The notes under the pieces: model-generated
Told to the model about the DNA's origin: nothing
Seen by the model: the letters and a program-made list of their open reading frames with translations, nothing else
Databases searched by the model: none
Assembly: GCA_948567375.1 (NCBI GenBank)
Contig: OX419755.1
Location: 84,884,245 to 84,948,244, forward strand
Length of the DNA: 64,000 bases
Direction of reading: 5' to 3'
Source of the DNA: Lunularia cruciata
Taxonomy: Eukaryota > Streptophyta > Marchantiopsida > Lunulariales > Lunulariaceae
Made by a program: the position numbers and the translations under genes
Shown: positions 1-44,239 of the stretch, in pieces
How the letters are laid out: each line of letters opens with the position of its first letter
How positions within the stretch are numbered: the first letter of the stretch is position 1

Positions 1-249
1 AGTTTTTCACACAGAGGTTGGGACCTCTAGTGGTCAGGAGCATGACACTATTGCTCCCAAGGGCCCAATGTAGCAGTCAGTCAATACGTCTTCCACTCCT
101 ACTACAGTTACAGAGGATACTTGGGAGCCAAATCTTGGACCCAAGCTTATTGGAGAGGAAAGACGGAGGGTTTGGAGGTTCTTGAGGAGTCACACGAGTT
201 GTTTTGTCTTCATTATGAAGGATTTGGGTGCTCTGAAGGGACCTGGTAT

Positions 250-1054
250 ACAAAATTGGGCTAACTAGTGACACACCAGTTTTCCGACATCCTTATCGAT
301 ATAGTGAGATGGAGAGGACATTGATTCAGAGCCAGAGTAGTGACCTTTTTGAGGTTGGTTTGGTGGAGATTTCACATGGAGAGTATGCATCAACAACAAT
401 GATGCCAGCCAAGAAGGATATGCATGGCAACTATACATATAGGCGGATGTGTGGAGATTACCGTCCTATCAACCAACAGACCAAGGCTGATTGGTATGCC
501 ATGCCTACACCGGAGGAGATTTTTGATGCGATTGGGCATGCAAAGGTCTTCAATACTTTGGATCTTCAAGCGGGATATCATCAGTTGCCGATCAGAGAGA
601 AGGATAAGTCCAAGACAGCATTTTAGGCTATTGATCCTCACGGCAAGGATGTGTTATATCAGTGGAAGTTCTTACCATTTGGATTAAAGAATGCTCTTGC
701 TGAGCTCCAGAGGGTCATGGATAGGATCCTAGCTGGATTGGATTTTGCTTGGTGCTATATTGATGACATTTTGGTTTATAGTACTACTATGGAGGAGCAT
801 GAGAGACAATTGTTGGAGGTGTTTGAGAGGTTGAGATCTCATGGACTCAAATTACATCCTGGGAAGTGTAGGTTCTTCCACGAGCAGGTTGAGTATTTGG
901 GTCACACTATCTACCCCGGAGGACTTGGTGTTCATCAAACCAAGGTGGATGTTATTGCACGTATTCCTCGGCCTAGGGATGTGAGCAGAGTACAAGCATT
1001 CCTTGGGTTGGCAAACTTCTACGCCGCTATGTTAGAGGATTTAGTGCCATTGCC
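250..1054 (+). pseudogene. Reverse transcriptase domain of copy A (broken)
   Basis: The translation shows the Gypsy RT series: a segment around MCGDYRPIN, then FNTLDLQAGYHQL, then FLPFGLKNA, and the catalytic box CYIDDILVYS near 755-785 with the two aspartates intact. It ends in the connection segment with LHPGKCRFF, VEYLGH and FLGLANFY. One in-frame TAG near 625 splits it and a frame change near 1,020-1,060 separates it from RNase H. The enzyme copies element RNA into DNA in the cytoplasmic particle. This copy is non-functional as written. It is the best-preserved RT in the window. Confidence 0.93.
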
Positions 1055-1560
1055 AAGGCCTTGACAAAGCTGACCAAAGTTACACAAGAGTGGTGTTGGG
1101 GAGATGAGCAAGAGAGAGATTTTGTAGAGCTCAAGGAGAGGTTGACATCTGCTCCTATTTTGAGGAGAATCAGGGGACGACCATTTCAGGTTCACACTGA
1201 TTGGAGTATGTTGGGGCTTGGAGCGGTGCTCACCCAGCATGATGATGAGGAGAAGGAGTTTGTGGTGGCCTATGCTAGTCGCTCTAACAATTCAGAGGAG
1301 GCAAAGTATAGTTCATATGAGGGAGAGTGCTTGGCAGCAGTTTGGGCAGTAGCACATTTATGATGTTACCTATTTGGTAACCCCTTCACTCTCATCACTG
1401 ATCACCAGCCGCTGAAGTGGTTGATGGAGTCCAACAAGCTTTTAGGGAAGCTTGCATGATGGGCTCTGATTTTACAAGAGTATGATTTCATGGTTATTCA
1501 TAGACCTGGTATGGTGAACCGTGATGCAGATGGGTTGAGTAGAAACCCATGCCCCAGCCA
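1055..1560 (+). pseudogene. RNase H domain of copy A (broken)
   Basis: After the RT connection, the translation gives FQVHTDWSMLGLGAVLTQ, then EFVVAYASRSNN, KYSSYEGECLAAVWAV and TDHQPLKWLMES, ending with DADGLSRNPCPSQ. This is the Ty3/Gypsy RNase H pattern, with the first catalytic aspartate in HTDWS, the glutamate in YEGEC and a later aspartate in TDHQPL. RNase H removes the RNA strand during reverse transcription. A TGA near 1,361 and a TGA near 1,458 interrupt it. It directly follows RT and precedes the integrase, as expected. Confidence 0.9.
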
Positions 1561-1659
1561 GCAGGATCAGACCAGAGCACGTTGGCATGGTGAGACAGAT
1601 GAGGAGATGGTGCCAGGTTGGCATGCATCGGCCTTTCTGTGTATATTTGCAAAGGCTTT

Positions 1660-2830
1660 GGTGGTATCTCTATCAGCGCATACAGGAGGAGTTATTGAGG
1701 TCACAGATCCAGAGAGTGAAGATATTGGTACAATTCAGTGAGACATTCATGATGATGTCTTAGTGATGGACTATCTTTGCACTGGTGTTGTGGGTGGCAT
1801 AGTTGGGGCCAAGGAGAGAGACCATGTTCTTCAGCGAGCCAGACGGTTCAGATTGGAGGGTCGACACCTTTTGCATGTATGGGAGGATGGAAGAGTGTGA
1901 GTAGTACCACTTCCATCTTAGAAACCACAGTTGGTCCATCATGCTCATGAGGAGCTAGGACATTTTGGAGTAAAGCGTACCTATAGCTTACTCCAAAGTC
2001 ATTATTGGTGGCACGGTATGCAGACCAAGGTATAGCAATTTGTTGCCAAATGTGTGATTTGTGACCAAGTTAGAGCATCATTCAATGCTCCTACGCCATA
2101 GTTACACCCATTACCTATCAAGGGATTGGGTTACCATTGGAGTTTGGACTTTGCTAAACCCTTTACCGCTAACTGTGAGACATCATCGGTATGTTTTGGT
2201 GATGGTGGAGCACTTCTCCAAGTGGATTGAGTTGGTGGCACTTCCTGACAAGTCTAGTGAAGGGACAGCTTACTCATTCTTGGATCAAGTTCTTAGTCAT
2301 TTTGGTGCACCAGTTGAGGTTTTGACTGATCAGGGTACAGAGTTCTTGGGGGAGTTTCAGGTCTTGTGTGACAAGGCTTTGATTGATCATCATACTACCT
2401 CCTGAGATCACCTTGAGGTAGATGGCTTAGCACAAAGAGTGGTTCAGACGGTGAAGAGAGGATTGCAAAAGTATGGTTTGCAGAGAGGCCACTTGGGAGA
2501 TTGGGATCTCCAATTACCTTGGTTGGCCATGAGCTATTGGTTCAGCCGGCAAGCCTCCTTAGTATCCTTCTCTCCATACTTTCTACTCTATGGACAAGAT
2601 CCAGATTTACCTGCAGCCATTTGTCGAGATGCTACTGTAGTTTTGGACTTGGATGATCTCGATATATGGATGAGTGCATGTTCTCAGCGGGCAGAGATCT
2701 TTTGGAGAGTGATGATGATGGCCTTTGAGAACTTGGCGATTGCTCAGCAGAGAGATACTTTACGTTATGCTACCATTCAAGGAGGAGGTTATAGACCCTC
2801 AATCCGTTGATTTCATCCAGGCGACTATGT
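1660..2830 (+). pseudogene. Integrase of copy A: HHCC finger and catalytic core (broken)
   Basis: The zinc-binding end is visible as HHAHEELGHFG followed by CVICDQ near 1,938-2,070. The core shows a central LTDQGTEFLGEF box with the second catalytic aspartate near 2,325-2,350, then VVQTVKRGLQKYGL and LPWLAMSYWFSRQASL, where Gypsy integrases carry the fold that ends the core. At the position of the third catalytic acid this copy reads DGLAQRVVQ, whereas copy B reads DGLAERVV, so the acid looks lost here. Integrase inserts the cDNA into the chromosome. Several stops (for example near 2,402 and 2,808) break the frame. Confidence 0.9.
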
Positions 2831-3185
2831 ATATCTATAGCAAACAACACCGATGACACTTGATGTTACTACAAGCCGCACTATCTTGAGAGTGCATGAG
2901 GTTTTGCCATCTTGAGTCCTTGTGTTAGAAGGACGTGATGGTGTTGTTTAGAAGGATCATGTGCACAATTGTGCACCATGCCACCTTCCAAACATTGATG
3001 GTACTATGGACCCAAGCTTGGCACTTGTATGTGCAGGCTTGAGGTGTATGTTATGTGGCTCTTCTGGTGGAGCTGCTACTATGTTAGTGTGTGATAGCTT
3101 TTTGAGAGGATAGCATATGGCATGTATGACTCCTCCCCTCACGGTGGTTCCTCAAGGACAGTGGTTATGTCCTAAATGTACTTGA
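2831..3185 (+). pseudogene. Integrase C-terminal domain fused to a PHD finger, copy A
   Basis: A short domain containing VLVLEGRDGVV and CHLPNIDGTMDPSL follows the integrase core, as a Gypsy integrase C-terminal domain would. From 3,045 it continues in frame into a zinc finger: CMLC, an 11-residue spacer ending ATMLV, then C, then HMAC, and QWLCPKC at 3,160-3,179. The frame ends with TGA at 3,183-3,185, so the finger is the last domain of pol. Two positions are damaged: the fourth cysteine reads phenylalanine, and the tryptophan before the histidine is a TAG. Copy B has both intact. PHD fingers usually bind histone H3 tails; that role here is inference. Confidence 0.88.
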
Positions 3186-3344
3186 CCTATAGCTAGTTCA
3201 TTCTTTAAATGGTATAGATTGCAGACAGGCGACTAACAATGAGGCTCCATAGCACCTGGCCTCCTGATCTTTGCCCATTAGAGGGTATACCATATACCTA
3301 GAGTAGATGGCTATCTGGAGTTAGAGGGACCTAACCGCCAGCTA

Positions 3345-3350
3345 GGGGGG
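3345..3350 (+). other. Polypurine tract of copy A
   Basis: A run of six G follows GCTA and lies immediately before TGATTGTGGCAC. The same position in copy B reads AGGGGGC and in copy E AGGAGG, each directly before the same repeat block. A purine run just inside the 3' LTR is the expected plus-strand primer for reverse transcription. Confidence 0.7.
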
Positions 3351-4002
3351 TGATTGTGGCACTTTAGAGTCTATGTATGACTTATATGTCAGTTGTGCTT
3401 CTATAGTGTATGATGTTGACAGCAATGTATGTTGTGTAGCGATGTATATACGCACAACAGCTGTCACACCATTTGTAGTGCCGCATCTAGATGCTCGGAC
3501 ACTGGAGTTCCAATGATAGTAGTTAGAGTTATTTCAGCAGTTTCTCAAAGACTACTTTCCAATAGTCAGATTTTGTGTTCATGGTACTGACTTCATGGTG
3601 GGGCCCACTGTCACTTTGCACCATTTGCACCGTCAAGTGTGCCGTCAGTGGGACCATTAGGGTTTCAAAGCTAGCTTGAGTCCAAGGGGTATAGTTTTGG
3701 AGCTCACTTCTTTGATGTTGAGCCTTCGAGTTCTTGGCTATGGTGGACAGAGGCCTATGAGCGTCACCTGGATTCTCTATGCTTGAGTGGGTATGGCTTG
3801 ACTATAATCAGTGCCTAGTTGTTGGCAGTTTATAGAGTGATAGATCAAGTACTGATCTGAGTTGAGTTGAGTTGAGAGTGGTAAGCAATCTGATTATTGT
3901 GGCACTTTAGAGTCTTTGTATGACTTATGTGTGAGTTTTGCTTCTATATTGTATGATGTTGACAGCAATGTATGTTGTGTAGCAATGTATACACGCACAA
4001 CA
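3351..4002 (+). repeat. 3' LTR region of copy A, with a duplicated border block (U-L-U')
   Basis: Three blocks are visible. Block U (3,351-3,461) begins TGATTGTGGCACTTTAG right after the polypurine tract. Block L (3,462 to about 3,895) begins TGTCACACCATTTGTAG. Block U' (about 3,896-4,002) repeats U. The same U-L-U' order occurs in copy B, whereas the 5' LTR of copy B consists of L alone. The simplest reading is an LTR of U plus L followed by an extra copy of U, but L plus U' is also possible. The arrangement is seen directly; the LTR definition is uncertain. Confidence 0.72.
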
Positions 4003-4771
4003 CCTCTCTTCCCCTCAACTTCAGGACCTTCCAAACAATTATTGGTAGCTATCACTGCCATGACTCCTAGGAAATTGAAATTCTAGTTCTACACTAAAAA
4101 GGTAATACAAAGTTTATTCAAGACTTTGATCCTTGCTACAACATCTAACCTCTAAATTGCAAAGCTCCTTACTGCAAGGGTGTTCTTGACCTTCTTCACC
4201 ATGATTTGCTCTCTTATTCTTTGGAACTAGAAAACTATTCTCTCTCCTAGACGCAACACTCTAACCCCTTCTAGACTTCAGAAAATTTCACTCTCAATTG
4301 GCTTCTTTACATGCATTACTATAGGATGACTATGCACAAGAATTGGATATCTACTTGACATATTCAATTTCCCCCTGCGCAATTGCAATTTTATATTACC
4401 CTAAAGTGCAGTCATTCTTTAGTCAATTTCAAATCAACTCCTCCTTCTTCTACGTGTTGATTTCTTGTCATTGTCAAGACATGCTTCTTTTGCCTCTACC
4501 ATTTCTTGAAGTGTACTTTCTTGCCACATAGAAAGGTTGTTAGACCGTCTTTGTATTGGCCTTTGCTGCCCAATCCGAAGATGATCATCTTCACACTTGT
4601 CTCTTTGTACTCCCCTTTTGAGTACTTCCATTTTCTGACCCAAAGTAGACTTCTTTGGATCTACTCCAAAGACACACCCATCCATCCTTTTCTTTGTAAT
4701 TTGGCTTTTTTACTCACTTCTTCCTCAAAACATTAACAAAACATTAAAAAACAAAAAATGTGGGCACCACA
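4003..4771 (-). mobile_element. D' fragment: end of a D-family element
   Basis: This stretch is collinear with 14,323-15,078 of element D. Shared landmarks are the start (CTCTCTTCCC), a middle block ending CAAGACTTTGATCCT, the segment AAAGGTTGTTAGAC, and the terminal AAAAAATGTGGGCACCACA, which ends at 4,771. It holds only one terminus of the family. Relative to the reading frame of D (minus strand), it is the 5' end. It is much more AT-rich and CpG-poor than D, so it is an older copy. The reading frame is destroyed. Confidence 0.82.
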
Positions 4772-5538
4772 ATCTACCTTGGTTGACTTGGTGTTTAGCA
4801 TTCCAAGGCAAAAGCTATTGCATATATTCCTTGGCCTATGGATGTGAGTAGAGTGTAAGCTTTCCTTGGTTTGGTAAAATTTTATCACCAATATATTAGA
4901 GGATTTAGTGCCATTGCAAGGCATTGACAAAGTTGACCAAGCTTACACAATAGTGGATTTGGGGAGATGAATAGGAGAGAATTTTTATAAAGCTCAACAA
5001 GAAATTAATATTTACTACTATTCTCAAGAGATTGATCAAAGGACAACAATTCTAAGTTCATTTTGATTGGAATACATTGGACCTTGCTTACCTAATAAGA
5101 TGGTGAGAGGAAGGAGTTTTTGGTAGCCTATGCTAGTTCCTCCAACAATTTAGAGAGGTGAAGTATAGTTCATATGAGGGAGAGTGCTTGGCAACAATGT
5201 GGGCATTAGCACATTTCCAATCTTATTTATTTGGTAACCCTTTCTTTCTCATCATTGATCATCAACCACTAAAATGGTTGATGAAGTTTGACAAGCTTTC
5301 AAGGAACCTTGCACAATGGGCTCTGATTTTATAGGAGTATGTTTTCACAATTATTCATCAATCTAGAATGTTGAACTATGATGCAGATGGGTTGAGTAAA
5401 GACACATGTCCCAACCAATAGGATTTGACTAGAGCACATTGGCATGGTGAGACAAATGAGTAGATGGTGTGGAGTTGGCATGCATCTATATATATGAGGT
5501 TTTGATAGTATCTCTCTTAGCACATTAAGGAGGAGTTA
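4772..5538 (+). mobile_element. Copy E of the PHD-family Gypsy element, piece 1 (RT end and RNase H)
   Basis: From about 4,830 the sequence is collinear with copy A from about 955 to 1,695: the RT connection (CCTTGGCCTATGGATGTGAG), the RNase H boxes (for example the equivalents of YEGECLA and HQPLKWLM at 5,170-5,285), and the VNRDADGLS-like region near 5,370-5,400. The piece ends at 5,538 where a chromovirus LTR begins. The sequence resumes at 11,102 and then at 15,079. The bases 4,772-4,830 do not align cleanly and include a short inverted match to the family. All frames are broken. Confidence 0.88.
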
Positions 5539-24360: not shown

Positions 24361-26640
24361 ATTATCATTCTTGCTCTTAAAAAGTTAAGAAGTCTTTGTA
24401 AGAGACATATAATTACTAAGGAGTCATTTATTCATGGATAGATATATATTATGTTTTTCAAGAGATATAAGGTATAGATATTAGTGAAGATTTGATTTAT
24501 CAACCATATTATCCCATGTAGAGTTCAATTTCCTCATTCAAAAGTATCCAAATAAATCTATAGATATATACACATTCATTATTTGAAATAAAGTACATAT
24601 TTGTGGTTATAAAATTTTTATGGAAGGTAAATTCATGCCGTTTCAAAGATTTTACCACTTGATGATGGGCAAATGTTAAGGATTTGGAGATGAATCCATA
24701 ACAATTCAATTATACATACTATTTAAGAAATTGTTTATCTTGAACTATTCAATTTGAGCTAAGTACCAAAATAAGAAATTCCTCTTCATCATCATCACAA
24801 TTTTGACTCCATATTTACATGCCAAAAAATTTCAATCCTATCAAATTAGTAATTTTTTTCCCAAAATAAGTTCATCCTTAAGGATTTTGGGTTACAAAGC
24901 TATTTTTGTTGAGCTTAATGGAATAGTTTGATGAGGAGCTCCAACTCAATAAACATTCCAAGAATTTGATGGTTTTGACATTTGTATCCATGGAGCTCAA
25001 TGGTGTTAATTGATTCAATGAGGTTACTCAACTTGGCGAACATCAACAGTATAAATTCAGCTTCTATATCTATGGTCAAATTCACTCTCTCATACCTAAA
25101 AATCACCATGAAAAAAATTTAAGTATTCTAAACTTAGAAATTAATGTCCAAATCCTTTACTAAATAACCAAAATTCCACATATAAGAATTTGGTAATTGG
25201 TTGTCATACCACATACATTTTTTGTATACCTTGGTCTAGTCTCGTACCTAATCTTATACTTTTAGGGAAGAGATATATTGTGTACATGGCATTCCTCGAG
25301 ATTAAGTTAAACCTTAAGTAAATCAGATCTAACTATTTCTTCCTTAATCTCCTCTACCAACTTGGAATTTGATGTCTAAATCTTCATATGATCAAGTCTT
25401 ATTAGTTGGTTTTATCTAAATTGCAAATATCATTATTTTGCAAATATAGATGGTGCTTTGTTGTACTTCTTCACTTTGACATTCAAAGCACTTGGAAAAA
25501 TCAAATTGTATCAACATTGTAAGGACCATCACATTACTTTTAATCAAATAGTTTCATTCTCCTCATCCATACTAATTTAAACTTGGCTATTTACTATTTG
25601 AATGAAGTTCTAGTATCACAAAACACCATGGTATTGTACATCTTTTGCTCAAATTGTATGCAACATTTTGCCCTCACCATACTAAGAAATTGGGCATACC
25701 ATGGATAACCTATCAAGGTTGAAGTATAGACCTAAAATTTGATCCTCAAAGCAAATTCCTTCCCAAAGTTATTAATTTGTTTATTCAACCACTCTTACAT
25801 GTATTGTTTACTAATAAGATAATTTTCACCTTGGAGACCTAATGCAGTCATGAGCATGAGATTATCCACCTCCAAAATTTAAAGAGGTATAGAAGGCACA
25901 TTAGACACTTCAAGAAATGCAATGATTTACCAATTACTAATCTCATCTCTATATAATGCAATTTTAGGGTAGGCATGTTGTTAAAAATAAAAATAAACTT
26001 TTCCTAAACTCCCATTGGAGTCTTTGGATTCAACCACATTATTATCCTCTTTTGCATCTCAATTAAGAAATATTGGCATGATCCCATTTCAATGTATAAC
26101 ATTTATTATACCTTTGACACAAGATTATTTTATCTCATGTCTAATTGCTACTCATACAACCATTGTACACTTTAGTCTTCAAAGTTCCTGTTTGAATATT
26201 TTTTACTAACAGTGAGATTTACATAGGAGCCATTTTACTCTAGTTCATGCTTATTACTATACTATGATCTTTAGGCTCTCCTACGCATTGGGGCTTTGTA
26301 TTCACCAATAATAACTAAGTGAAGATCATGTACTTCAACACTATCAAATTTGTGGGGCATATCATTAAGCAAATGCGGGTGTGCATCTTTCTTAGTGGAC
26401 TTTAACTTCCATGACCACCACTTTGTTGTTTTAACAACATATTTGGGAGATATAGGTTAGCACACAATTTGGCATTATATTATAATTTATAGTTCATCTT
26501 GCATTGGTTACTATGCTTACCAAAAATGATACACTTAGAGTGTTTGAGTTATATGTGAAAGGTTCAATTCAAGCAACCTTGGCATTTGACTTGTTTATAA
26601 TTTGAGAGTAGATCATGGATATTTATTTTTTATAGCCTCC

Positions 26641-26698
26641 AATCGTTTGCTTTACCTTATGAAATTTCTAATCATTTGTTTTACCTTATGAAACTTCT
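26641..26698. repeat. Tandem duplication, 2 x 29 bp
   Basis: Units 26,641-26,669 and 26,670-26,698 both contain TTTACCTTATGAAA and differ at three bases. Confidence 0.85.
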
Positions 26699-29111
26699 TG
26701 TGCTCCAACTATCCTTAAGGGTACTTTAGGAAGAACTAATTACTACTAGTTCAATTATTCTTATGCTCCTATACCTCAAGTCTAACAAAAGATTTGAACA
26801 TGAGTGTGGCTACAAACCTCCATGATAATTTCATCTAACCTTGCACTATTCAAGCATAATTCCACATCTTTATCTCCCAATAAGCATAATCTTACTTGAA
26901 CCTTCTCCAAAGGATTATGGTTGGTTGATGTAATGCCATATGGAGAAAGATCATGCTTGTAAATTTATTTGCACCTCTCTTGGGCTTATCATCCATTGGT
27001 TTTCATGCATGTAAACTCCTTGGTCCATGTTTCAAGACAAGTAAAATGAAAGCCCACTATGATAGTGTCTCTACCATGCACATGCTCTTTTAATAGCCCA
27101 TCCAAAAAAGAGTATGCACTTTGATGGCCATCCAGATTGCTAAGCTAGCAATGCAAGGCCAACATTTTTCCCACCTTTGTAGCCTCCATTGACACTTTAT
27201 ATTGAGCCATGGACATGCTTATGCCATTCCACATCCAAATGGAGCAAAAACAAAGTTTTTTTACAATTTTTGTACTCCCATAATTCCAAGCACCTATTTA
27301 ACTCTCTCTAGAACTTCCTTAAAAAATTTCCTTGTTCAATTTTTTCACTTCCCAATATTTAGCCTTGGAAGGAATTTACCTTTTTCGTAGTATTGCATTC
27401 CTAAATAGACTAAATTGTAGGTAGCACCTCATAGAGAAATAGAGTCCAAGCGCAATATCACACTCTTTGAATCCACTTTCCTAAGAAGTTGAGCTCGTTA
27501 TGCTTCAAATGAGACTTCTTTAAAGTACAATTCTCATGAAAAAATGGCTAAATTTAAAGTTAGTATCTTTTTGTTTGCTTGCTACTATAAAGGGAACCCT
27601 TATTAGTTTCTTTTCCTTTCCTTAATGATATGCTTAAACTCAATAGGTAATCTTGCTTGGTCTTGGATTTGTTACTAGGTTTATGCTTACTTGACCATCC
27701 CAATCTTCATAAAATTGATGCATCAAAGAAAAATTACAACTTATCTGTTGCTTTTGCTTGTTATCAGAGTGGATTTAAACTCTAAGGCTAAATCATCTTT
27801 ACACATGGCTAAACTCAAGTATACAAAAAATTCTGCATTTAAACCAACCATACTAGTAGCTATATTAATGTACCTATGCTTTAAGGGTTATATAATGTAA
27901 TGTTCTTTTCTTCCATGTGAAATGTTAAAGCAAGTGGCATTTTTACTAGAGGTGTCAAACATCCCAAAGGTGAAAACTTATCTTTCAGGGTTATCTTCAA
28001 TTCTTATCCTACTTAATCAACTTAAGCATGATGATTTAAGCAAAAGCAATCTTAAAATGAGATCATAATGCAATATTGTAACTATGAAATTCATTGCTTG
28101 CATATCTCTTGAGAAGTATTGGATTAAGTGCAAGAAATAGGATATACATATGTATATAGAAGGAGATGAGAAAATCCTTTGCTTCTATCTATCTCATGAG
28201 GATATTTCACCCCATTGATTCAAAATAGACTTGATTTCCTTTGTTGACGTGTCATCTTTCAATTCTATAGGACACCAAAATCTCATACGGTAATCTAGAT
28301 CATACAATAAAGGTAAAAAATTTTTCCTTGTTAAATATTTCACAACACATAAACTTATTGCTATTAAAAAAGTTGCTTAATCTTTTTTCTTGGCATTGGT
28401 ATTTCTTAACTCTTTTCTACATTTAGCTTGTGCAATGAATCAGTTCACCTCATCTAATATGGAAAATTTGTAATATAATGTCTAAGTTGTTAGTAAGAAC
28501 AAACGTATCATGCAATATATAGTTATCCTCTTCCAAAATTGGTTAACAGCTTACATTGGACATTCTCAATTTTGATTATCAAGATAAATCTCTTCATTTC
28601 CTTCTATATGATGCACTTGTATAATTTGTTGATGTTATATATACACAAGTGTTGAAGAGACAAAATGTTGAAGTTATTCATAGTCTATATGGCTAATTAT
28701 AGGTTACATGTTCTTTTATGATTATCTCTATTTCTGAACAATGATTCAACCTATACATGAACAATCTAAAGCTTCTACTTCAAAAACTTTTGGAATTTAC
28801 ATGAGAGTATTCAATAAATTAACAACATAACTCTTCACAAAACCAAAATATTTTAACTTTACAATTTATTTTTGTGCTTCTTTTGTTAAATTGATGATTT
28901 GATATCAAGGTATAATGGTTCCTTTTTAAACCATTGATAAATCCCATTTGAGAGTGTAAAACCATGTTATTGGTGATTTACTTAAAACCTTTACCAATAT
29001 TTTTTAGTGCACTCTAATTGACTTATTGCTAATAGAATTAGTGATCATTATCCTTTATGTTGGTAGTATAGAAATTTTACCCATAATCAAATATGAAACT
29101 CCAATCTACCT

Positions 29112-29869: not shown

Positions 29870-30532
29870 TGTCGTGTATATACTTATTGTTATACACATT
29901 GCTATACAACATATATCATTGTCAACATCATACACTATAGAAGCACAACTCACACATAAGTCATACATGAACTCTAAAGTGCCACAATGAATCAATTTGT
30001 TTACACAACTCAAATCACACACAATCAGATGAGTAGTTGATCTATTGCTCAACAATTTGCCAACAATTGGTACTAATTATAGTCAAGTCACACCCACTCT
30101 AGCTAAGAGACTGTAGGTGACACTCATTGGCTTTCTATCCACTCTAGCTAGGAACTCAAATGCTCAACATCAGATAAGTGAGCTCTCTAGAGCTACATTT
30201 CTAGAGTATACTCTTGATTTTGACCTAGGTCAATGGTCCCATTGACAGCACACCCAACGGTGTGAATGGTGTAAGTGACAGTAGGTCACACCATGTAGTC
30301 AATACCCCAAACATGAAATCAAACCGTCAAGAAGTAGTATTTGAGTAACTGCCAAAATACATCTAACTACTATCACTACTACTTTAATGTCCAAGCAATC
30401 TAGATGCAATGCTACAATGGCATATGTCATGCATATACACATTGTTATACAACATACATTGTTGTCAACATCATACACTATAGAAGCACAACTCACACAT
30501 AAGTCATACATGAACTCAAAAGTGCCACAATT
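29870..30532 (-). repeat. 3' LTR region of copy B (U-L-U')
   Basis: On the minus strand: block U (30,532-30,430) directly after the polypurine tract, block L (30,429-29,988), then block U' (29,987-29,870), a second copy of U. L matches the 5' LTR (39,293-38,864), with CAACATCAGAG, GAGCTC and ACTCTTGATTTTGACxTAGG stretches on the + strand in both. The same U-L-U' order is found in copy A. Confidence 0.78.
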
Positions 30533-30538
30533 GCCCCC
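30533..30538 (-). other. Polypurine tract of copy B
   Basis: AGGGGG followed by C on the minus strand, directly before block U, at the same place as the six-G run of copy A. Confidence 0.65.
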
Positions 30539-30701
30539 TAGTTGGTGGTTAGGTCCCTCTAACTCCAGATAGCCATCTGTTCCAATTATATGGTAAATCA
30601 TATGGTGGGCAAAAGAATAGGAGGCTAGGTGTTGTCAAGCCTTATTGTTAGTTGCTTATCTGCAATCTATACCATATAAAGGATGAACTAGCTATAAGTC
30701 A

Positions 30702-31080
30702 AGTGCAACTAGGACATAACCACTGTCCTTTAGGAACCAACATGAAGGGAGGAGTCATACATGCCATATGCCATCCTCTCAAACAACTATCACACACTAA
30801 CATAGTAGGAACTCCACCAGAAGAGCCGCATAACATACATCGCAAGTCTACACGTACAAGTGCCAAGCTTAGGTCCATAGTACCATCAATGTTTGGGAGG
30901 TGGTATAGTCCACAATTGTGCATATGATCCTTCCAAATAACACCATCATTTGTTTCTAACACAAGGACTCCAAATGGCAAAACCTTGTGCACTCTCCAGA
31001 TAATATGGCTTGAAGAAACATCAAATATCATTGATGTTGTTTGTTGTAGATATACATAGTTACCTAGATGAAATCAAGTG
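30702..31080 (-). pseudogene. Integrase C-terminal domain and intact PHD finger of copy B
   Basis: An open segment of 110 codons (31,031-30,702) begins inside the integrase C-terminal domain (VLPFGVLVLETNDGV and LPNIDGTMDLSL). It continues into a canonical PHD finger at 30,839-30,705: CX2CX11CX2CX4HX2CX14CX2C, with W just before the histidine (RGWHMAC), TPP after the sixth ligand, and W two residues before the last cysteine pair (QWLCPSC). All eight zinc ligands are present and the stop follows one residue later. PHD fingers read histone H3 tails; here it takes the place a chromodomain has in chromoviruses. A targeting role is inferred. Apart from single substitutions it matches copy A and the decayed copy E. 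Confidence 0.93.
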
Positions 31081-31084
31081 ATTG

Positions 31085-32230
31085 AGGGTCTATAACCTCC
31101 TCCTCAAATGTCAGCATATTGTAAGGTATTCCCATGCTGAGCAATCGCCAAGTTCTCAAAGGCCATTGGCATCAGTCTTTGAAAGATCTTTGCTTGTTGA
31201 GAACATGCACTCATCCATACATTTGGATCATCCAAGTCCAACACTATAGTAGCATCTTGACAAATGGTAGCAAGTAAATATGGATCTTGTCCAGAGAGTA
31301 GAAAGGAAGGAGAGAAGGATAGTAAGGAGGATTTCCGGCTAAATTGATAGCTCATGGCCAACTAGGATAACTAAAGATCCCAATCTTGCAAGTGGCTTCT
31401 CTGCAAACCACTCTCGTCATTGTCTAAACCACTCTCTCTGCTAAGCCATCTGCCTCAAGGTGATCTTGGGAGAGTAGTACAATGATCAATCAAAGCCTTG
31501 TCATAAAATACCTAAAACTCTCCCAAGAACTCTGTACCTTGATTAGTCAAAACCTCAATTGGTGCACCAAAATGACCAAGAACTCGATCCAAGAACAAGT
31601 AAGTTGTCTCTTCATTAGACTTGTCAAGAAGTGCCAACTCAATCCACTTGGAGAAGTGCTCTACCATCACCAAAGCATATTGATGATGTCTCATAGTCAT
31701 TGGTAAAAGTCTAGCATAGTCCAAACTCCAGCGGTAACCCAATCCTATGATAGGTAATGGGTGTAACTATGATGTAAGAGCATTAAATGATACTCTAACT
31801 TGGTCACAAACCACACATCTTGCAACAAATTGTTATACATTGGTTTGCATACCGCGCCACCAATAATGATTTTGGAGTAAGCTATATGTACACTTTACTC
31901 CTAAATGTCATAACTCCTCATGAGCATGATGGACCAACTCTGGTCTTTGAGATGGAAGTGGTACTACTTTCACTCTACCATCCTCCCATACATGAAGAAG
32001 GTGTTTACCCTCCAATCTAAACCGTCTGGCTTGCTAAAGGACACAATCTCTCTCCTTAGCCCTAACTCTGCCACCCACAACACCAATGCAAAGAAGTCCA
32101 TCATTAAGACATCATCATGAATGTCTTGCTGAATTGTACCACTATCTCTACTCTCTAAATCTATGACCTCAATAACTCCTCTTGTATGCACTAAGAGAGA
32201 TACCACCAAAGCCTCGAAAAATATACAAAG
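31085..32230 (-). pseudogene. Integrase of copy B (broken)
   Basis: The minus strand shows the HHCC finger (HHAHEEL, then CVVCDQV near 31,930-31,800). The core has HFSKWIELALLDKS and FLDRVLGHFGAPIEV, then LTNQGTEFLGEF, in which the catalytic aspartate reads asparagine (31,560-31,515). ADGLAERVV follows near 31,440-31,415 with the third acid present, then AMSYQFSRKSSL (31,361-31,310). Stops interrupt it. Same layout as copy A. Confidence 0.9.
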
Positions 32231-32269
32231 AAAGGAAAATATTTGCCAACCTCACACCATCTCCTCATC

Positions 32270-32880
32270 TAATCTTGATGGTTGGGACAATGGGTTTGTA
32301 CTCAACCCATTTGCATCACGGTTCACCACTCTAAGTCTATGAATAATTGTAAAGTCATACTCCTATAAATTCAAAGCCCATCATGCAGGTTTCCCTAAAA
32401 GCTTGTCAAACTCCATCAACCACTTCAATGGTTGATGATCAATGATAAGAGTAAAGGGTTTACCAAATTAGTACCATAAAAGATGTGCTATTATAAGCAC
32501 TCTCTCTCATATGAAATATTCTTTCACTCAACTAAATTGTTGGAGCAACTAGCATTTAGCCACCAAAACTCCTTCCTCTCATCATCATGATGGGTGAGCA
32601 CTGGTCCAAGCTCCAACATACTCCAATCAGTGTGAACCTGAAATGGTCATCCTTTGATTGGCCTCCTCAAAACAGGAGCAAATGTCAACCTCTCCTTGAG
32701 CTCTACAAAAGCTCTCTCTTGCTCATCTCTCCAACACCACTCATGTATAAGCTTGGTCAGGTTTGTCAAGGCCTTGGCAATGGCACTAAATCCTCTAACA
32801 TAATGGCAATAAAAGTTTGCCAACCCAAGGAATGCTTTCACTCTGCTCACATTTGTAGGCCAAGGAATACATGCAATAAC
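32270..32880 (-). pseudogene. RNase H of copy B (broken)
   Basis: VHTDWSMLELG near 32,640-32,605, then KEFWWLNAS-like and YERECL segments, LKWLMEFDKL-like near 32,420, and NRDANGLSTNPLSQ-like near 32,330-32,285. Equivalent to copy A 1,180-1,560. Several stops and frame changes. Confidence 0.82.
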
Positions 32881-33640
32881 CTCCACCTTGGTCTATTGAA
32901 CACCAAGTCCTCCAAGGTAGATAGTAAGATCCAAATACTCAACCTACTTGTGGAAGAACCTACACTTCTTAGGATGTAATTTAAGTCCATGAGATCTTGA
33001 CCTCTCAAACACCTCCAACAAATGTCTCTCATGCTCCTCCACAATGGTGCTATAGACCAAAATGTCATCAATATAGCACCAAGCAAAATCCAATCCAACT
33101 AGGATCTTATCCATGATCGTCTAAAACTTAGCACAAGTGTTCTTTAACCAAAATGGTAGAACCTCCACTAATATAACACATCCTTATCACGAGGATCAAT
33201 AGCCCAAAATGCTATCTTGGACTTATATTCCTCTTTAATTGGCAATTGATGATATCCTACTTGAAGATCCAAAGTATTAAAGATCTTTGCATGCCCAATT
33301 TCATCAAAGATCTCCTCCAGTGTAGGCATGGCATACTAATCAGCCCTAGTATGTCGGTTGATAGGATGGTAATCTCCACACATTTGCCTCTATGTGTAGT
33401 TTCCATGCATATCCTTCTTGGTTGGCATCATTGTAGCTGATGCATCCTCTCCATGTGAAAGCTCTACCAAACCAGCCTCAAAAAGGTCACTACTCTAGCT
33501 CTAAATCAATGCTCTCTCCATGTCATTATATTGATAAGGACATCAGAAAATTTGTGTATTGCTAATTTGGTCAATCCATGTACCAGGTCCCTTTAGAGCA
33601 CCTGAATCCTTCATATTAAAGGCAAAGCAACTTGTGTAGC
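32881..33640 (-). pseudogene. Reverse transcriptase of copy B (broken)
   Basis: SSDLFEAGLVELSHGE, MMPTKKDMHGNYT, MCGDYHPINRHT, YAMPTLEEIFDEIGHAK and FNTLDLQVGYHQLPI run from about 33,490 to 33,225. The catalytic box CYIDDILVYS is at about 33,080-33,050, followed by SHGLKLHPKKCRFF and GLANFYCHYVRGFSAIAKAL (32,830-32,770). Frameshifts separate the parts. Motif for motif it matches copy A. Confidence 0.9.
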
Positions 33641-34109
33641 TCCTTAAGAACCTCCAAACTCTTCCTCTTTCCTCTTGGATTGAAACTTACAACTTGTAAG
33701 TTTCAATTCAAGATCTGGCTCCCAAATATCCTCTATAACTATCATATGAGTGGAAGACATATTGACTAGCTGCTGCATTGGGCCCTTTGAAGCAATAGTG
33801 TCATGCCCCCAAGCACTAAAGGTCCCAACCTCAATGTGAAAAACTCCCTCTAATCTAGTTATAAGCTCCATATATCCTCTCACTGCATCCCAATTAGACC
33901 AAGGGTGTAATCCCAATAGCCCAAGCTCATTTGGATGGACTCCAAGTAGACCACCCTCTCTAGTAGCCATTGGTTGTGTCCCAATAATACCCTATCCACT
34001 TGGTCTATCACCCCCACCATTTGCTTGAACCATCTTGATAGGCACAAGGCTCGCAAGTGTCAGAGTGGTGATGCCTATCAAGTGGATCCTACATTGCTCT
34101 ACCAAACCA

Positions 34110-35110
34110 AGGCTCACAACCCAAGTCAAACAATTCAGGTCCATAGCCCAACCTAACATTTGATGCCTGGATGCCTCTTACATTGCTAGAACAAAAATAA
34201 TACCAATGCAAAAACCCATCACCCATTATCTCTCATTGGCATTGGGTCCACCAATTGTTGTAACTATGAGTCCCAAACCAATCTAGGACCTCTCTCTCAA
34301 AAAGCATAGGAGCATAGGAAACTCATAAATGTAGGAAAAGTGGCTCTAGGCTTGTCTAACTAGGTTCACCACTGCCATAAGTGACTTATCAGCCACTACC
34401 CATTCTATGAGATTGACGCCCAACATCCAAGATGTCATCAACAATGATGTGGTCCTATCATAAGCATGTTGTAGAATCTCTCTAAATAAGAGGTTCATCC
34501 ACCAAAGATGAAGATGATGAGCTCGTGATCCCACTCTAGCTACATCTAATAACATGGAAAGTTCTATCCAAGAATGGACTTGATGTGTACTCGCCACCAC
34601 CCGAGTGTAAGAATCACACATCAAAGGGATGTTCTCCAAAATATAAGCTAGAAAAATAGACTGATGAACTTGGAGATATCATAGTATACATAACATCTCT
34701 CAAAACACACCAGAGCATGGATCTTGAAGACCCAAACACCTCGGCTAACACGTGTGACCCAAACACCCAACATGGCTATCCAAAAATCACCAAATGAATA
34801 GGATCATGTCTCTCCAAATCCTACACCCCCAGCAAGGAAATGTCTAATGGCAAGGTCTCATAGTAACCCTTGACTAATGACATTGGTAATAACTTTGGAT
34901 ACCAATAGGCCAAGTGTGTTACATGATGTAAAGAGACTTGCTTAGCTATCTCATCTCTCTCTACATTCAACTATTTTTATACTCATACACCCACATGTAG
35001 TATTGCAACTAGTCCAATGCTAATCCCACCAAACAACTCCAATAGACATACTCCCTCTATTGGATATTGCCAAGCAATGAGTGTGGTATCTAGAGGTGTC
35101 AAGGTGATGA
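34110..35110 (-). pseudogene. Cytosine-5 DNA methyltransferase domain inside the pol of copy B (broken)
   Basis: On the minus strand the order of conserved motifs is that of class I C5-methyltransferases. Motif I is LELFGGISIGL (35,042-35,010, S-adenosylmethionine loop). Motif II follows as YLNVERDEIA-like, with the acidic residues. Motif IV has Pro-Cys at 34,775-34,770, the catalytic cysteine, preceded by HLVIFG. Motif VI is ILENIP (34,642-34,625). Motif VIII is VGSRAHHLHLWWMNL (34,534-34,490). After a short target-recognition region come ER-x4-MGF (34,234-34,211) and motif X LGWAMDLN (34,156-34,133). Length is about 310 residues, similar to DNMT3-type catalytic domains. Five or more stops and one frameshift near 34,730 inactivate it. 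It lies between protease and RT. The enzyme would transfer a methyl group to cytosine; the target is unknown. Confidence 0.9.
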
Positions 35111-35362
35111 ACTTTGAAGGGTCATCCTCACATTGGTCTCTTGGTGGTACACAGGCTCCACTCCAAGCTTGCTGCACCCACCAATCTACATGTTGTTGTA
35201 GTGGTTCCTTTGAACTCCACAATGGAACATCCAAGGTGGATAGAAAAATCCCACTCATACTTCAAATCTGAGTGACCTCCTCTGGTACTTGAGTATCCTC
35301 TGCATGGGCGTTCCACTTCAATAAATCACCAAGCTAAGTAACAAAACCACTGGAAGTTAAAA

Positions 35363-36000
35363 CTAATGTTGCCATGGTCCTTGACTATAGTGAGCCAAGA
35401 CTACTACTTCTAAAGCATAATAGTAGGTGACATATGCATCCCTCACCTGCTTGCCAACCTGGTATATAGGAGGTTGTCTCCTCCCAATAGTTAATATTGA
35501 AACCCCTGAGGTACAACATTGCTTCCCAACTAACACATCATATGACTCAACTGTGGTTGCAATGGCATGAACTCTCACCACAAAGCTATTAGTCGGATGA
35601 CCAGGCTGAATCTAAACAACAAGCTCTCTACATGTGATATACTTTGTAGAAACCACCACCTAGAGATGTTTGGATTTGAAATGGACACCTCTCCATGTTA
35701 GTCTTCCGTAACTCCAAACCAACAATTATAGCCTTCTCCAACATAAGAGGTTGTGCACTAGAGTCCAATAAGACACTCTATGGTGTATAGACCTTCTAAA
35801 GGTCACACCAATTGAAAAATCTCCCTCTGGTTATCCAATAGGACAACTCTAGGTGTAAATTGTGCTTACTCAAAGGCCAATCTACTTGGTAACTCTTCCA
35901 ATCTAGCTGTTGCTACCTACCATAAACCATTGGTCATTGAGCAAATCTCATGCTCCTCAACCAAGTAAGCTCCACTATCAACCACCTCTGCTCTAGTAGT
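35363..36000 (-). pseudogene. Retropepsin-like protease of copy B (broken)
   Basis: FTPRVVLLDNQREIFQL and PLEGLYTIECLIGL lead (through a frame change) to the active-site box DSSAQPLMLEKA, Asp at 35,765-35,763, where DSGA is usual. The strands CPFQIQTSLGG follow, and then TVESYDVLVG (35,550-35,520), where retropepsins carry the second hydrophobic-glycine box. It lies downstream of gag and directly upstream of the methyltransferase. It would cleave the polyprotein. Confidence 0.83.
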
Positions 36001-36479
36001 AGGGACCACATCATCCTTAATCTCACAAATCATGGCAGCCAATTAGAACACTAGGTTTGGGTCAACTCCCAATGTACACATGTCATTAGCTAAGAATAAT
36101 GGAAAGTGCATAATCAACTAAGTCACCTCCAACATCATGTTAGACTCAATCTGTGTAGTAGAAGGTGGCTGACTAGTAGGTAGTCCATCATGCACCCCAT
36201 CACCACCTACCTACCTACCTACACCAGGACGTCTAGGAGCCATGAATGTTTGTCTATAATGCCTTGAAGGGTGTAAAAGATTTGGGAAATCTGACCTATC
36301 TACCAATCTCTCCTTTATGTGGGTCCAACTCCATTAATGCTCCTCTAGGCTTTGGATCATGTACCGCACTCCTAGTCATTGCGGTAGAGGTATCTACCTC
36401 TTCTACTCCGCACATGAAATCCAAGATATCTCTATCACTGACATATGAGGTGGAAGCCTCAACACCCCAATCTAATCCC

Positions 36480-37935
36480 TTCTAAGCTATGGTCATGCTA
36501 GCCAATCTTTGCTCTAATCTCCCAATGCAAGTAGCCATGGCCACATCAAAAGTAAGGGTAGGTACTACACCCCTACTGGTTATGGATCCTCTACCACCAC
36601 CTCTTCCACCTCGTCCTCCATGACCTAGAGCTCCTCTACTAGCTGTCATAGCAGCTCTACCACTCCGTAACTTTGGGTGTAGGTCAAAGCATTGGTCATT
36701 GGTGTGACCAAATCTGTGGCAATGCTCATATTATCTCTATGCTGGCCGTGATGCACCAAAGGTATTAGGTCCGCTACCTTGAGTGCACTCTCTCCTATGG
36801 TGAGGTCCACCACAAGTCCAACAAGCAAAACCACCACTCATTGGTTGGTGTTGACCCAAAAGTGAAGGTAAGGGTCTAGCTACACTAAGCCCTCCACTCA
36901 CTCCATAGGATCTAGGCTATCCACCTTGTCCTTAGAAACCAACATGGCGTGGTGTGCTCTACTACACTCTAGAAGAAGTAAACCTATGGATGAGGTCTCC
37001 TTACCAAATCCATATGTCACCACTCTCTCTTCCACCATGTTGAGCTCAATATGCTTAGCCAAACCAAAGACCATTGCCAAAGTAGGCAAAGTAGCATGTA
37101 ACAAATGTAGCATCACAGACTTTACATTGTTACTCCTGGTACAATATCCCATACCAAAATTGGATTGCTTGGGCCTCAATAACTCCTTGAGTAAAATTGA
37201 TCAGTTATCTCATGCAAGTGTATGCCTCGTATAGGCTCTTTCTAGCCTTTTGTTGGAACTCTTGCAAGCTCTTCAACCTTTTAGTCCGCACTCCTTGGTA
37301 GTTTTGCCTCAAATACTAGAAGAACTCTACCATGGGGTCAAACCTTGGTACTAAACCACCTCCTATAGTAGTACCTCCACTTGTAGTAGCGCCATCTCCA
37401 AGAGATCCACCAATGCTACTAGAGCTAGAACTCATAGGTATAGCAATCTACCCCTCAAAACCAAGACTAAAGTGATGAAGATATAGTTTAGAGACCTATA
37501 TTGTCTCCATAGCTCAATCTCCTCCAAGTGAACACTCTTGAACTCATGGTAGTTGTCCATTGATGGACCGTCCAAGTGTTGAAATAACCTCTTCTATGCC
37601 ATGAAGGGTGTGAACAAAGTTGGGTTTTGCATCTACTATAGATCACACCAATTATCAAACTCCTGGATGAAGTCATCCAACTCAATGGTACCCTTTGTAC
37701 TAGAGTAACATTTGGGACCTTTGGAGGCACCATGAATCTTGTCCATACCCCATAACTATGGTGCATACACATCAAGTGTACTCTCAATTGAATTAGCTCT
37801 TGTACCAAATTCCAACTTAGAGTCAATTTTCTCCCTCATTGGGACCTTAGATACATGCTGATATTAAGCACCATTCTGAGTAAACCCATTGTATATTATG
37901 GAATTATCTCCTCCAAAATCCCCAAAGAACTCCAT
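36480..37935 (-). pseudogene. gag of copy B: capsid region and two zinc knuckles (broken)
   Basis: The likely start is the ATG at 37,935 (MEFFGDFGGDNS). The retrotransposon gag pattern is clear: LDDFIQEFDNWCD, NPTLFTPFMA, KRLFQHLDGPSMDNY, HEFKSVHLEEIELW (37,700-37,490), then FDPMVEFF, NYQGVRTKRLKSLQEFQ and AQAIQFWYGIL (37,340-37,130), then LAKHIELNMVEERVVT. The first knuckle is CWTCGGPHHRREC (36,823-36,785), a perfect CX2CX3HX4C. The second (36,730-36,689) has Tyr in place of its first Cys but keeps CHRFGHTNDQC. A Gly/Arg-rich stretch follows (GGRGGRGGGRG). Gag packages element RNA. Several TAG/TGA stops. Confidence 0.9.
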
Positions 37936-38863
37936 CGTGACAAAGTAACCAAGAACTACAACCCACAATCAAAACCACCATAAGTACCCTACCAAAAATC
38001 ACCACCAAGTGCCAACACCAATAAGTGTAAGCATCACCAATTGAGCATCATCGACTAATGTAGCTCTAACTACGATAACTACACTAGGAGGAAAAGAAAC
38101 CTATAACTTGCCATCACAACATGCACTCTCACGGTCTACATGTCATCACTTCCTACTTCATTGGAGAGAAACACAAGTAGTCTGACTGGTCATCACTCTA
38201 GTCCTCATTGCCAAGAGCACACCAAAGCACCAACGCTCTAAATTTAGGGCACCTCACACAAACATGGTGCACAAACAAGAAGTAGAGAATGGATGGGGTC
38301 ACAAGAAGCCCAAACAAAAACCCTCCATCTCATAAATTAACACCATACTAACCTTGCTACCATTTGGAATTTCATATAATTGGAGTAACTATCTACTTCT
38401 TGAGCTATGAGGATCATTGAGAACAAGATCATATATTTTCTCACCAAAATTTGATGTAAACCCTTCACAAAATCTGACATAAATCTAACGTAAAATCCCA
38501 TAGAAATCCCTAAAGTTGGTTGACCACTAAATCCTCTGCTAACTCTTCACTCAAGCCAAATTGGAAAGATGGAGATCTATAAATCTCTAATTTGTGTGAA
38601 TAGGTTCCCAACTCTAACCTCAATTTCACTTTTTGAGCTCAACTTGCACCAAATTGGTCCTACTTTCACCTCCTACGCTCAAAATCACAACTACTACTTG
38701 AAAATTGCTTCTCTTTGCTCAAAATATGGCTAGTGCTTCTACACACAATCATTCCCAAGGAAATCAAAATTGCAATCAAGGTACCATGATCCATTGGGCT
38801 TAGAGATACCACCACCATATTCAATTCTTACACCCAATTTCCCCTCGGCTCTCACTTCTCTGA
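37936..38863 (-). other. Leader of copy B with candidate primer binding site
   Basis: Untranslated region between the 5' LTR and gag. Directly after the LTR the minus strand reads ACATCAGAG, sharing the ATCAGAG core of the plant initiator-Met tRNA site, followed by GTGAGAGCCGAGG, so a decayed primer site is plausible at 38,866-38,850. No other feature is seen. Confidence 0.55.
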
Positions 38864-39293
38864 TGTAATCATTTTTTTTACAGAAGTCAAATCACACTCA
38901 ATCAGATCAATACTTGATCTGTCACTCAACAATCTACCAACATTTGGGTATTGATTATAATCAAGCCACACCTCCTCCAAGTGATGCTCATCGGCTTTCT
39001 ATCCATTCTAGCCAAGAACTAGAATGCTCAACATCAGAGAAGTGAGCTCTTTGGAGCTACACTTCCAAGGTATACTCTTGATTTTGACGTAGGTCTCACC
39101 CCAACGGTCTTGTTGATGGCACATCCAATGATATAGACGGTGCAAGTGATTGTGGGCCTTACCATGTAATCAATACCTCAAACACAAAATTTGACTGTCA
39201 GAAAGTAGTCTATGAGTAACTACCAAAATACCTCTAACTACAATCATTGCTACTCTAATGTATGAGCAATGCAATGCTACAAATGGTGTGACA
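38864..39293 (-). repeat. 5' LTR of copy B (430 bp, block L)
   Basis: It starts TGTCACACCATTTGTAG at 39,293 and ends TGATTACA at 38,864 on the minus strand, with TG...CA ends. It matches block L of the 3' LTR (29,988-30,429) over its full length with many substitutions, so the insertion is old. Block U, present at the 3' end, is missing here. Confidence 0.83.
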
Positions 39294-43475: not shown

Positions 43476-44239
43476 ACCAGGAAGGCAAGGCTGCATGGTG
43501 AAGGTTGAAGTGAGAAGAAGGCGACCGCGTAGGAGAAACGAAGGTTGGGAAGACCCCATCAAGCCCCAATAGAGTCTATACGAGAAAGGTTGAAGTCGGG
43601 AACCATCCACTAGCGAAATTCTCAGCTAATGCTTTGGGCCTTGGACTCCTGTTCCCTCATGATCATCACATTTCTAATCGAGACGCAAAATTGTTTAGTG
43701 CTGTATATTGGTCTGTTTCTTGAATCTACCAGATTGGAAATTAGTCGAGTTAGACCCGTTAAATTTTAAACGAAGATCATTCATTACGAATTTCTTATCG
43801 TATTCTCATACATGCTCTAAACTCATTTAATTTCCTTAAGGTTCTAGGCCATATTAATTCGAACCCGAGACTAAGAAATGACCACGTGGACGGCGGCCTC
43901 TATGGTTGAAGTCAGCTGGAAAAGGGTGTCCTTCACTGTGCAAGGGAGACGACGACGCTCACATTGCGTTGGACCCGAGGTTATGACTGGACCAGTGCAT
44001 ACAAAGTGGGAAGGAGAGTAGAGATGACCCGACGTGAGTTAGGCTGAAGCAAAGGCAGGGAAACAGGGAAAGGAAGGAAGGTGCACGAGAGGAGAAGGAG
44101 AAACAATGTCTTTTGTTGTTGTTGTCGCGGGGGAGGGGAGGGGGGCAAAGGGAGGGGAGCTCTCGACGCCATAGCCACATAGTGGAAAGAAGCCATTAGA
44201 AGTGAAGGGTTCACGAGTAGGAAGATATAGGAGTAGAAG
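43476..44239 (+). promoter_or_regulatory. UPF1 upstream region and 5' untranslated region
   Basis: CpG becomes frequent from about 43,500, in contrast to the repeat block on the left. No convincing TATA box is placed at a fixed distance from the ATG. A G-rich run near 44,130-44,160 and a purine-rich leader (GGAAGATATAGGAGTAGAAG) precede the start codon. The transcription start cannot be placed from sequence. Confidence 0.5.

Follow-up and report, generated by a model that had tools for sequence, protein, structure and literature searches.

The liverwort Lunularia cruciata harbours a Ty3/Gypsy retrotransposon family that carries a cytosine-5 DNA methyltransferase (MTase) domain between its protease (PR) and its reverse transcriptase (RT). 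Here we describe this element from a stretch of 64,000 nucleotides (the window; assembly GCA_948567375.1, contig OX419755.1, positions 84,884,245 to 84,948,244 of the forward strand), which holds a full-length, decayed copy (copy B) and part of a younger one (copy A). The position of the domain in a land-plant Gypsy element, proposed in an initial annotation of copy B, is borne out by the sequence, by the predicted fold of a relative and by many copies and species. The element is laid out as A1 - ORF1 (Gag-CCHC-PR-MTase) - UAG - ORF2 (RT-RH-IN-PHD) - B1-GC-A2 - B2, where ORF is an open reading frame, RH is RNase H, IN is integrase, and A and B are repeats. Beyond what the initial annotation had described, the element has a UAG between its ORFs, a PHD finger, split repeats and target duplications.

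The methyltransferase domain and its family

On the minus strand of copy B all of the MTase motifs listed earlier are where they had been placed: LLELFGGISIGL (motif I), VERDE, ENIP, GSRAHHLHLWW and LGWAMDLN, with ER-stop...MGF read between the last two. Motif IV reads stop-PC, a former Trp codon now being a stop, and the motifs fall in two frames, with a switch from frame 0 to frame 1 at about 34650, and stops are present. The location of the domain stands, and its limits, given before as 34110..35110, are corrected to 35099-34070. Copy B had rightly been called a relic: its frames are broken, stops are present and identity to young copies is 82-83% (82.3% over 1071 aligned bases in the MTase region). 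No Pfam match to PF00145 was obtained in any of its three frames. The profile check proposed earlier thus fails for copy B alone and succeeds for the family, as the ORF of young copy L006 matches above the cut-off (E=1.5e-8; 34.9 bits against a cut-off of 22), with 29.8 bits for L009; the advice to study younger copies was well placed.

The 565,766,749-base assembly was searched with the PF00145 profile, which gave 123 scored matches, most with one common profile span. Eight of these were opened. L005-L008 are the MTase-bearing element; L001 and L002 read, by their motif order, as host genes of the DNMT3 and the rearranged (DRM-like) type, L001 pairing with DNMT3A in the MTase tree (support 0.976); L003 and L004 have no ORF of 150 codons. 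When the L006 MTase was used as query, all 117 scored genomic matches were 95-100% identical (13,841 loose candidates), and 20 of these places were fetched, most of them chosen for long open frames. Nearly all young copies have motifs I, IV (PC), VI (EN), VIII and X intact, in un-permuted order. The family is very abundant in this genome. It covers 15,453 of the 64,000 window bases (24%) and 1,365 of 20,400 bases in the 3' flanks of the 17 copies used for this count (all 20 but L020, L021 and L028).

The MTase could have been a chance insertion, or a host-gene fragment, in copy B only, for which the Pfam miss in that copy is the sole point. The 117 near-identical matches, the same position of the domain in 20/20 fetched copies, the MTase of copy A (L063, just outside the window, 94% identity) and the domain in Marchantia and others virtually rule this out; the family copies carry the MTase, where the initial annotation had allowed that others might lack it.

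Coding organisation, conservation and relatives

In young copy L009, ORF1 (546-4829) encodes Gag, two CCHC knuckles, a protease with LLDSGAQ, the MTase (3501-4535) and a 98-residue tail, and ends in TAG. Pfam found nothing in this ORF besides the MTase; Gag, knuckles and protease were assigned by motif and by likeness to relatives, and the protease was detected by Pfam only in the latter. ORF2 lies in frame with ORF1 and encodes RT, RNase H, integrase and a C-terminal PHD finger, with one stop inside it in L009. The integrase has the D, D and E residues and is therefore of the DDE type, and the order PR-RT-RH-IN is that of Ty3/Gypsy. The MTase is in ORF1 with Gag and protease, before the UAG, in 20/20 copies. 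The order PR-MTase-RT had been read correctly, but the domain, then described as inside pol, is not in the RT-integrase ORF.

At the DNA level, the stop of ORF1 stands in the context TAG-CAG-CCA in all 20 copies from this genome and in TAG-CAG-TCA in copy A, and no other codon of the ORF1-ORF2 frame is a stop in more than four of the 20. The type I readthrough motif known from plant RNA viruses is UAG-CARYYA (PMC5382211). Judged by its sequence, UAG-CAG-CCA is a type I readthrough context. The PHD finger is of the C4HC3 form, has CHD4, KMT2D, DPF3 and KDM5 among its nearest solved relatives and matches PF00628 at 4.4e-8 in copy B and 5.2e-11 in a young copy. PHD fingers of that kind bind the histone H3 tail. 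Chromoviruses are Ty3/Gypsy elements with an integrase chromodomain; the L. cruciata element likewise has a histone-reader module at the integrase C-terminus, a PHD finger instead of a chromodomain. Pfam matched neither a chromodomain nor a tyrosine recombinase in the element.

Selection was measured in 20 copies for ORF1 and 15 for ORF2 (L020, L021, L022, L025 and L027 dropped). Variants common to at least two copies comprise 17 nonsynonymous (N) and 20 synonymous (S) changes in the MTase, an N/S of 0.34 of the neutral expectation, compared with 0.33 for gag, 0.33 for PR, 0.19 for RT-RH and 0.48 for integrase; pairwise pN/pS is 0.31 for MTase, 0.34 for gag and 0.31 for RT-RH. Comparison with Marchantia and other relatives is freer of bias from the choice of copies. 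Identity to Marchantia P0150 is 72% in the MTase, 65% in gag, 63% in PR, 46-55% in the linkers and 40% in the tail, and identity to P0153 and P0156 is 49-53% in the MTase and 26-28% in gag; RT-RH is conserved more than the MTase (341/424 vs 228/333 against P0061). Across 28 aligned relatives the motif IV Cys is nearly invariant and the motif VI EN invariant. In P0035, P0036, P0039, P0042, P0043, P0044 and P0179 motif IV is GWEC, with Glu for the usual Pro before the catalytic Cys.

Instead of serving as a DNA methyltransferase, the domain might have been kept because it binds RNA or nucleic acid, or because it has a structural role in the particle. Its place in the Gag-side ORF and the GWEC of several relatives in place of GWPC fit such a role, but the motifs intact in nearly all young copies, the conserved Cys and EN and a predicted DNMT3 fold over 273 residues in relative P0001 (Foldseek matches re-examined, 50 matches listed) make it quite unlikely. 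DNMT3 is also the closest of the solved structures by sequence profile, and the element enzyme is thus supported, by sequence and model, as a DNMT3-like cytosine-5 methyltransferase resembling the DNMT3 of animals.

Relatives among the matches listed (in one search, the best 120 of 208) come from Marchantia polymorpha, M. paleacea, Calypogeia fissa, Sphagnum species, Closterium sp. NIES-53 and Monoraphidium neglectum, and some of their protein records already bear the name DNA (cytosine-5-)-methyltransferase. P0074, from a metagenome-assembled genome labelled Candidatus Obscuribacterales, is probably a stray contig. Three layouts occur: Gag-PR-MTase closing an ORF (P0150, P0153-P0157), PR-MTase-RT in one ORF (Closterium P0179, by Pfam; P0097 and P0182 also run the MTase into the RT) and RT-RH-MTase-IN-PHD in one ORF (P0158, P0159, P0164, P0173, P0177 and P0178). 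Elements of the third layout, whose hosts are by inference algal, have an MTase of the same family (34-42% identity) and an integrase-PHD; they differ from the L. cruciata element in having the MTase between RNase H and integrase, all in one ORF.

An RT tree of 24 elements groups together, with support 0.992, all that have the MTase before the RT (this genome, Marchantia, Closterium and P0182). The MTase tree (58 retroelement and 11 other enzymes) falls into three groups, the retroelement enzymes as a single clade, the phage enzymes and DNMT3, an arrangement that does not show which of them are sisters; it sets Closterium P0179 beside P0178 (support 0.906), at odds with the RT tree. A search of IMG/VR for a viral origin gave 28 loci resembling phage C5 MTases, at 27-47% over short stretches, and no close relative; this origin was rejected. 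Of the two origins left open earlier, inherited or regained, the former is favoured because the Closterium element has the same PR-MTase-RT order and falls in the RT-tree group, although the MTase tree disagrees. On the simplest reading the MTase was captured once, long ago, and later moved within pol; two captures of related enzymes, or horizontal transfer, may have occurred instead. The MTase has probably been carried by this Ty3/Gypsy lineage since before land plants.

Ends of the element and other features of the window

Repeat A, about 449 bp, opens the element, and ORF2 is followed by a G run resembling a polypurine tract (PPT), then B (107 bp), GC, A and B. Intact direct long terminal repeats (LTRs) at both ends are not present; the split repeats A1...B1-A2-B2 take their place. 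PAT/DIRS elements have such split repeats, in the order A1-ORFs-B1A2-B2; the L. cruciata element differs from them in its DDE integrase, its 4-bp target duplications and the lack of a tyrosine recombinase among its Pfam matches. Copies start with TGTCACGCC and finish with CGACA, with point changes in a few. Target duplications of 4 bp flank all 18 of the 20 copies that could be read at both ends (5 by eye, 11 by script, L020 from flank sequence and L024 by eye); L010 and L017, with rearranged 5' ends, were left out. On this sequence evidence the element appears to be inserted by its integrase and not by a tyrosine recombinase. In copy B the ends are decayed, and the flanks ATGA and AAGA match at 3/4 bases. 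In five copies only 4-15 mismatches per about 450 bp separate A1 from A2, and these insertions are therefore young.

The B1-GC-A2 joint forms the palindrome GACAGCTGTC in 15/20 copies; L023 and L026 have one change each, and L020, L021 and L027 are without A2. The last three stop at a single B repeat and have perfect 4-bp duplications (L021 is also without part of ORF2); they may stem from B1 x B2 recombination or from insertion of a one-junction circle. We infer a circular form of this element: a circle B-A-ORFs-B-A, if cut after the CA on each strand of one palindrome, would yield exactly A-ORFs-B-A-B with retroviral-type ends, and foamy virus integrase cuts the LTR-LTR junction in that way in vitro (PMC1180852). 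There is a similar paper on HIV-1. Under ordinary linear LTR replication the split repeats would arise in reverse transcription, with no cutting of a circle by integrase. The PPT-like run just before B1, from which plus-strand synthesis could start at B as in ordinary LTR elements, and the single-B copies, which B1 x B2 recombination explains, make this a credible if somewhat improbable alternative; the cut at insertion, however, lies precisely at the CA/TG within the B-GC-A palindrome and not at the PPT/B boundary.

Table 1. Positions of element features in the window
Feature	Position	Strand	Basis
Copy A, ORF1/ORF2 junction to B2, younger copy	1..4008	+	93.7% to L015 over 4020 columns
UAG of copy A, then CAGTCA (fits CARYYA)	71..73	+	sequence
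Copy B, full-length decayed element (A1-ORF1-ORF2-B1-A2-B2)	29891..39293	-	blastn to L015/L032, 82% over 8647 columns, plus repeats
A1, 5' terminal repeat, begins TGTCACACC; inner end approximate	38860..39293	-	repeat comparison
Protease region, LLDSSAQ active-site relic, limits approximate	35480..35790	-	translation, motif counts
DNMT3-like cytosine-5 MTase domain, relic, copy B	34070..35099	-	translation, likeness to young copies, family ORFs
Site of UAG between ORF1 and ORF2, CAG in copy B	33773..33775	-	alignment to young copies
RT and RNase H relics	32357..33165	-	PF00078 2.7e-12, PF17919 3e-11, PF17917 1.4e-4 (below cut-off)
Integrase, H2C2 zinc domain and rve core	31458..31952	-	PF17921 1e-14; PF00665 1.6e-6 (below cut-off)
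PHD finger, C-terminus of integrase ORF	30705..30839	-	PF00628
B1 repeat	30425..30531	-	repeat comparison
A2, internal copy of 5' terminal repeat	29990..30421	-	repeat comparison
B2, 3' terminal copy of B	29891..29988	-	repeat comparison

Elsewhere in the window, an isolated ribosomal DNA fragment lies at 25813-27647 (-), a partial eukaryotic large-subunit rRNA (Rfam RF02543, 333 bits, model positions 24-1888 of 3401). Three adjoining ORFs of 163, 222 and 178 codons at 12412-14211 (-) are charged and partly of low complexity, and look like repeat or retroelement protein. A first-exon-like ORF at 44237-44770 (+), which we take to resemble plant UPF1, is followed by several diverged direct repeats of 190-230 bp (46423-56356). 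The window is the last 64 kb of its contig; no TTTAGGG/CCCTAAA units were found in its final 5 kb, and the contig ends without plant-type telomere repeats.

Proposed life cycle and significance

The nearest described system is KnitGypsy-Dnmt3 of the charophyte Klebsormidium nitens (PMC5890265). It shares with the L. cruciata element the Gypsy domains, a non-rearranged Dnmt3-like MTase and a DIRS-like arrangement of the repeats. No K. nitens record was among the relatives listed, and the comparison is by description: its DNMT is described in the Pol ORF, whereas the L. cruciata MTase closes the Gag-PR ORF before the UAG; the L. cruciata element has an integrase PHD finger and demonstrated target duplications; and KnitGypsy-Dnmt3 is described as having fewer copies than the element in Symbiodinium, in contrast to the very many copies in this bryophyte. 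SymbioDIRS-Dnmt3 of dinoflagellates, also a retroelement with a Dnmt3 domain, is of the DIRS, tyrosine-recombinase class and described as an independent acquisition; its enzyme methylates CG in yeast (PMC5890265). Retrotransposon-embedded DNMT3 is mentioned for streptophytes and dinoflagellates (PMC12344493). A literature search of titles and abstract openings, with most subscription journals and bioRxiv outside its coverage, returned no prior report of bryophyte elements of this kind. As far as this search reaches, the liverwort and Sphagnum hosts, the Gag-side MTase with a readthrough-type stop, the integrase-PHD, the palindromic junction and the 4-bp duplications appear to be new.

We propose that most ribosomes would stop at the UAG and produce Gag-PR-MTase at the level of Gag, the few that read through giving RT-integrase. 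Because it would be made at Gag level, the MTase may be packaged in the particle, where it could methylate the new double-stranded cDNA before integration, probably at CG, and so mark it as host-like. Integrase would then cut the palindromic B/A junction of the circular cDNA after CA on both strands and insert it with a 4-bp stagger, the PHD finger perhaps guiding insertion to chromatin via the H3 tail, as chromodomains do in chromoviruses. Taken as a whole, from the DNMT3-like MTase lineage to PHD targeting, we regard this explanation as an even call.

Several observations weigh against it. The UAG is not universal: P0179, P0097 (43% identical) and P0182 lack a stop between MTase and RT, Marchantia gene models P0061, P0017 and P0151 run on too, although in these the stop may be spliced out, and the site in copy B is CAG-CAG-CTA. 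All 20 copies were fetched by MTase match, most for long frames, which biases the selection measures; MTase singletons are depleted too (0.49), as copy choice by MTase similarity would produce, and the contrast between shared variants and singletons is not significant for the MTase (Fisher p 0.55; gag 0.012, RT-RH 0.00015). No primer-binding site was found by eye after A1, and for the A-ORFs-B copies (3/20) B1 x B2 recombination is as good an explanation as a circle. Old copies show decay at both CG and CHG sites, and any methylation by the element therefore fails to prevent later silencing-type methylation. KnitGypsy-Dnmt3, the only Gypsy relative to have been assayed, produced no methylation in yeast, a result its authors call inconclusive (PMC5890265).

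Compared with young copies, C-to-T change amounts to 0.43 at CG, 0.375 at CHG and 0.109 at CHH in copy B, and to 0.26, 0.124 and 0.025 in copy A, a ranking as expected for a fossil trace of host methylation. The same ranking would be expected if the MTase methylated the element's own DNA, keeping copy number and host damage low and letting mild elements persist, a possibility among those raised in PMC5890265. Such self-silencing seems hardly likely, however: the family is very abundant, decay at CHG and CHH suggests the work of host enzymes and not of a CG-type DNMT3, and self-limitation is hard to keep by selection within a genome.

A genome parasite is here equipped with a tool of the sort by which its host silences it, in an element that is abundant in a land plant and has young copies by repeat divergence. 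Its relatives in Marchantia polymorpha, a plant with strong genetics, make the question of why a transposon carries a silencing enzyme directly testable, and split repeats, a palindromic junction, a DDE integrase and 4-bp duplications, occurring together, are also relevant to the way in which such elements integrate. The published L. cruciata genome measures 565.6 Mbp (PMC12885004), and its doubling is credited to Ty3/Gypsy bursts (PMC12885004, PMC9985172); the word 'methyltransferase' does not occur in the main text of PMC9985172. It is conceivable, if doubtful, that these elements form an ancient order of retroelements in their own right, found in green plants and algae, with Gypsy proteins, a DNMT3-like MTase, an integrase-PHD and integration from a palindrome-cut circle, in which an MTase at Gag dosage premethylates the cDNA. 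If this is true, such a strategy could have been the driver of the Gypsy bursts behind the doubled L. cruciata genome.
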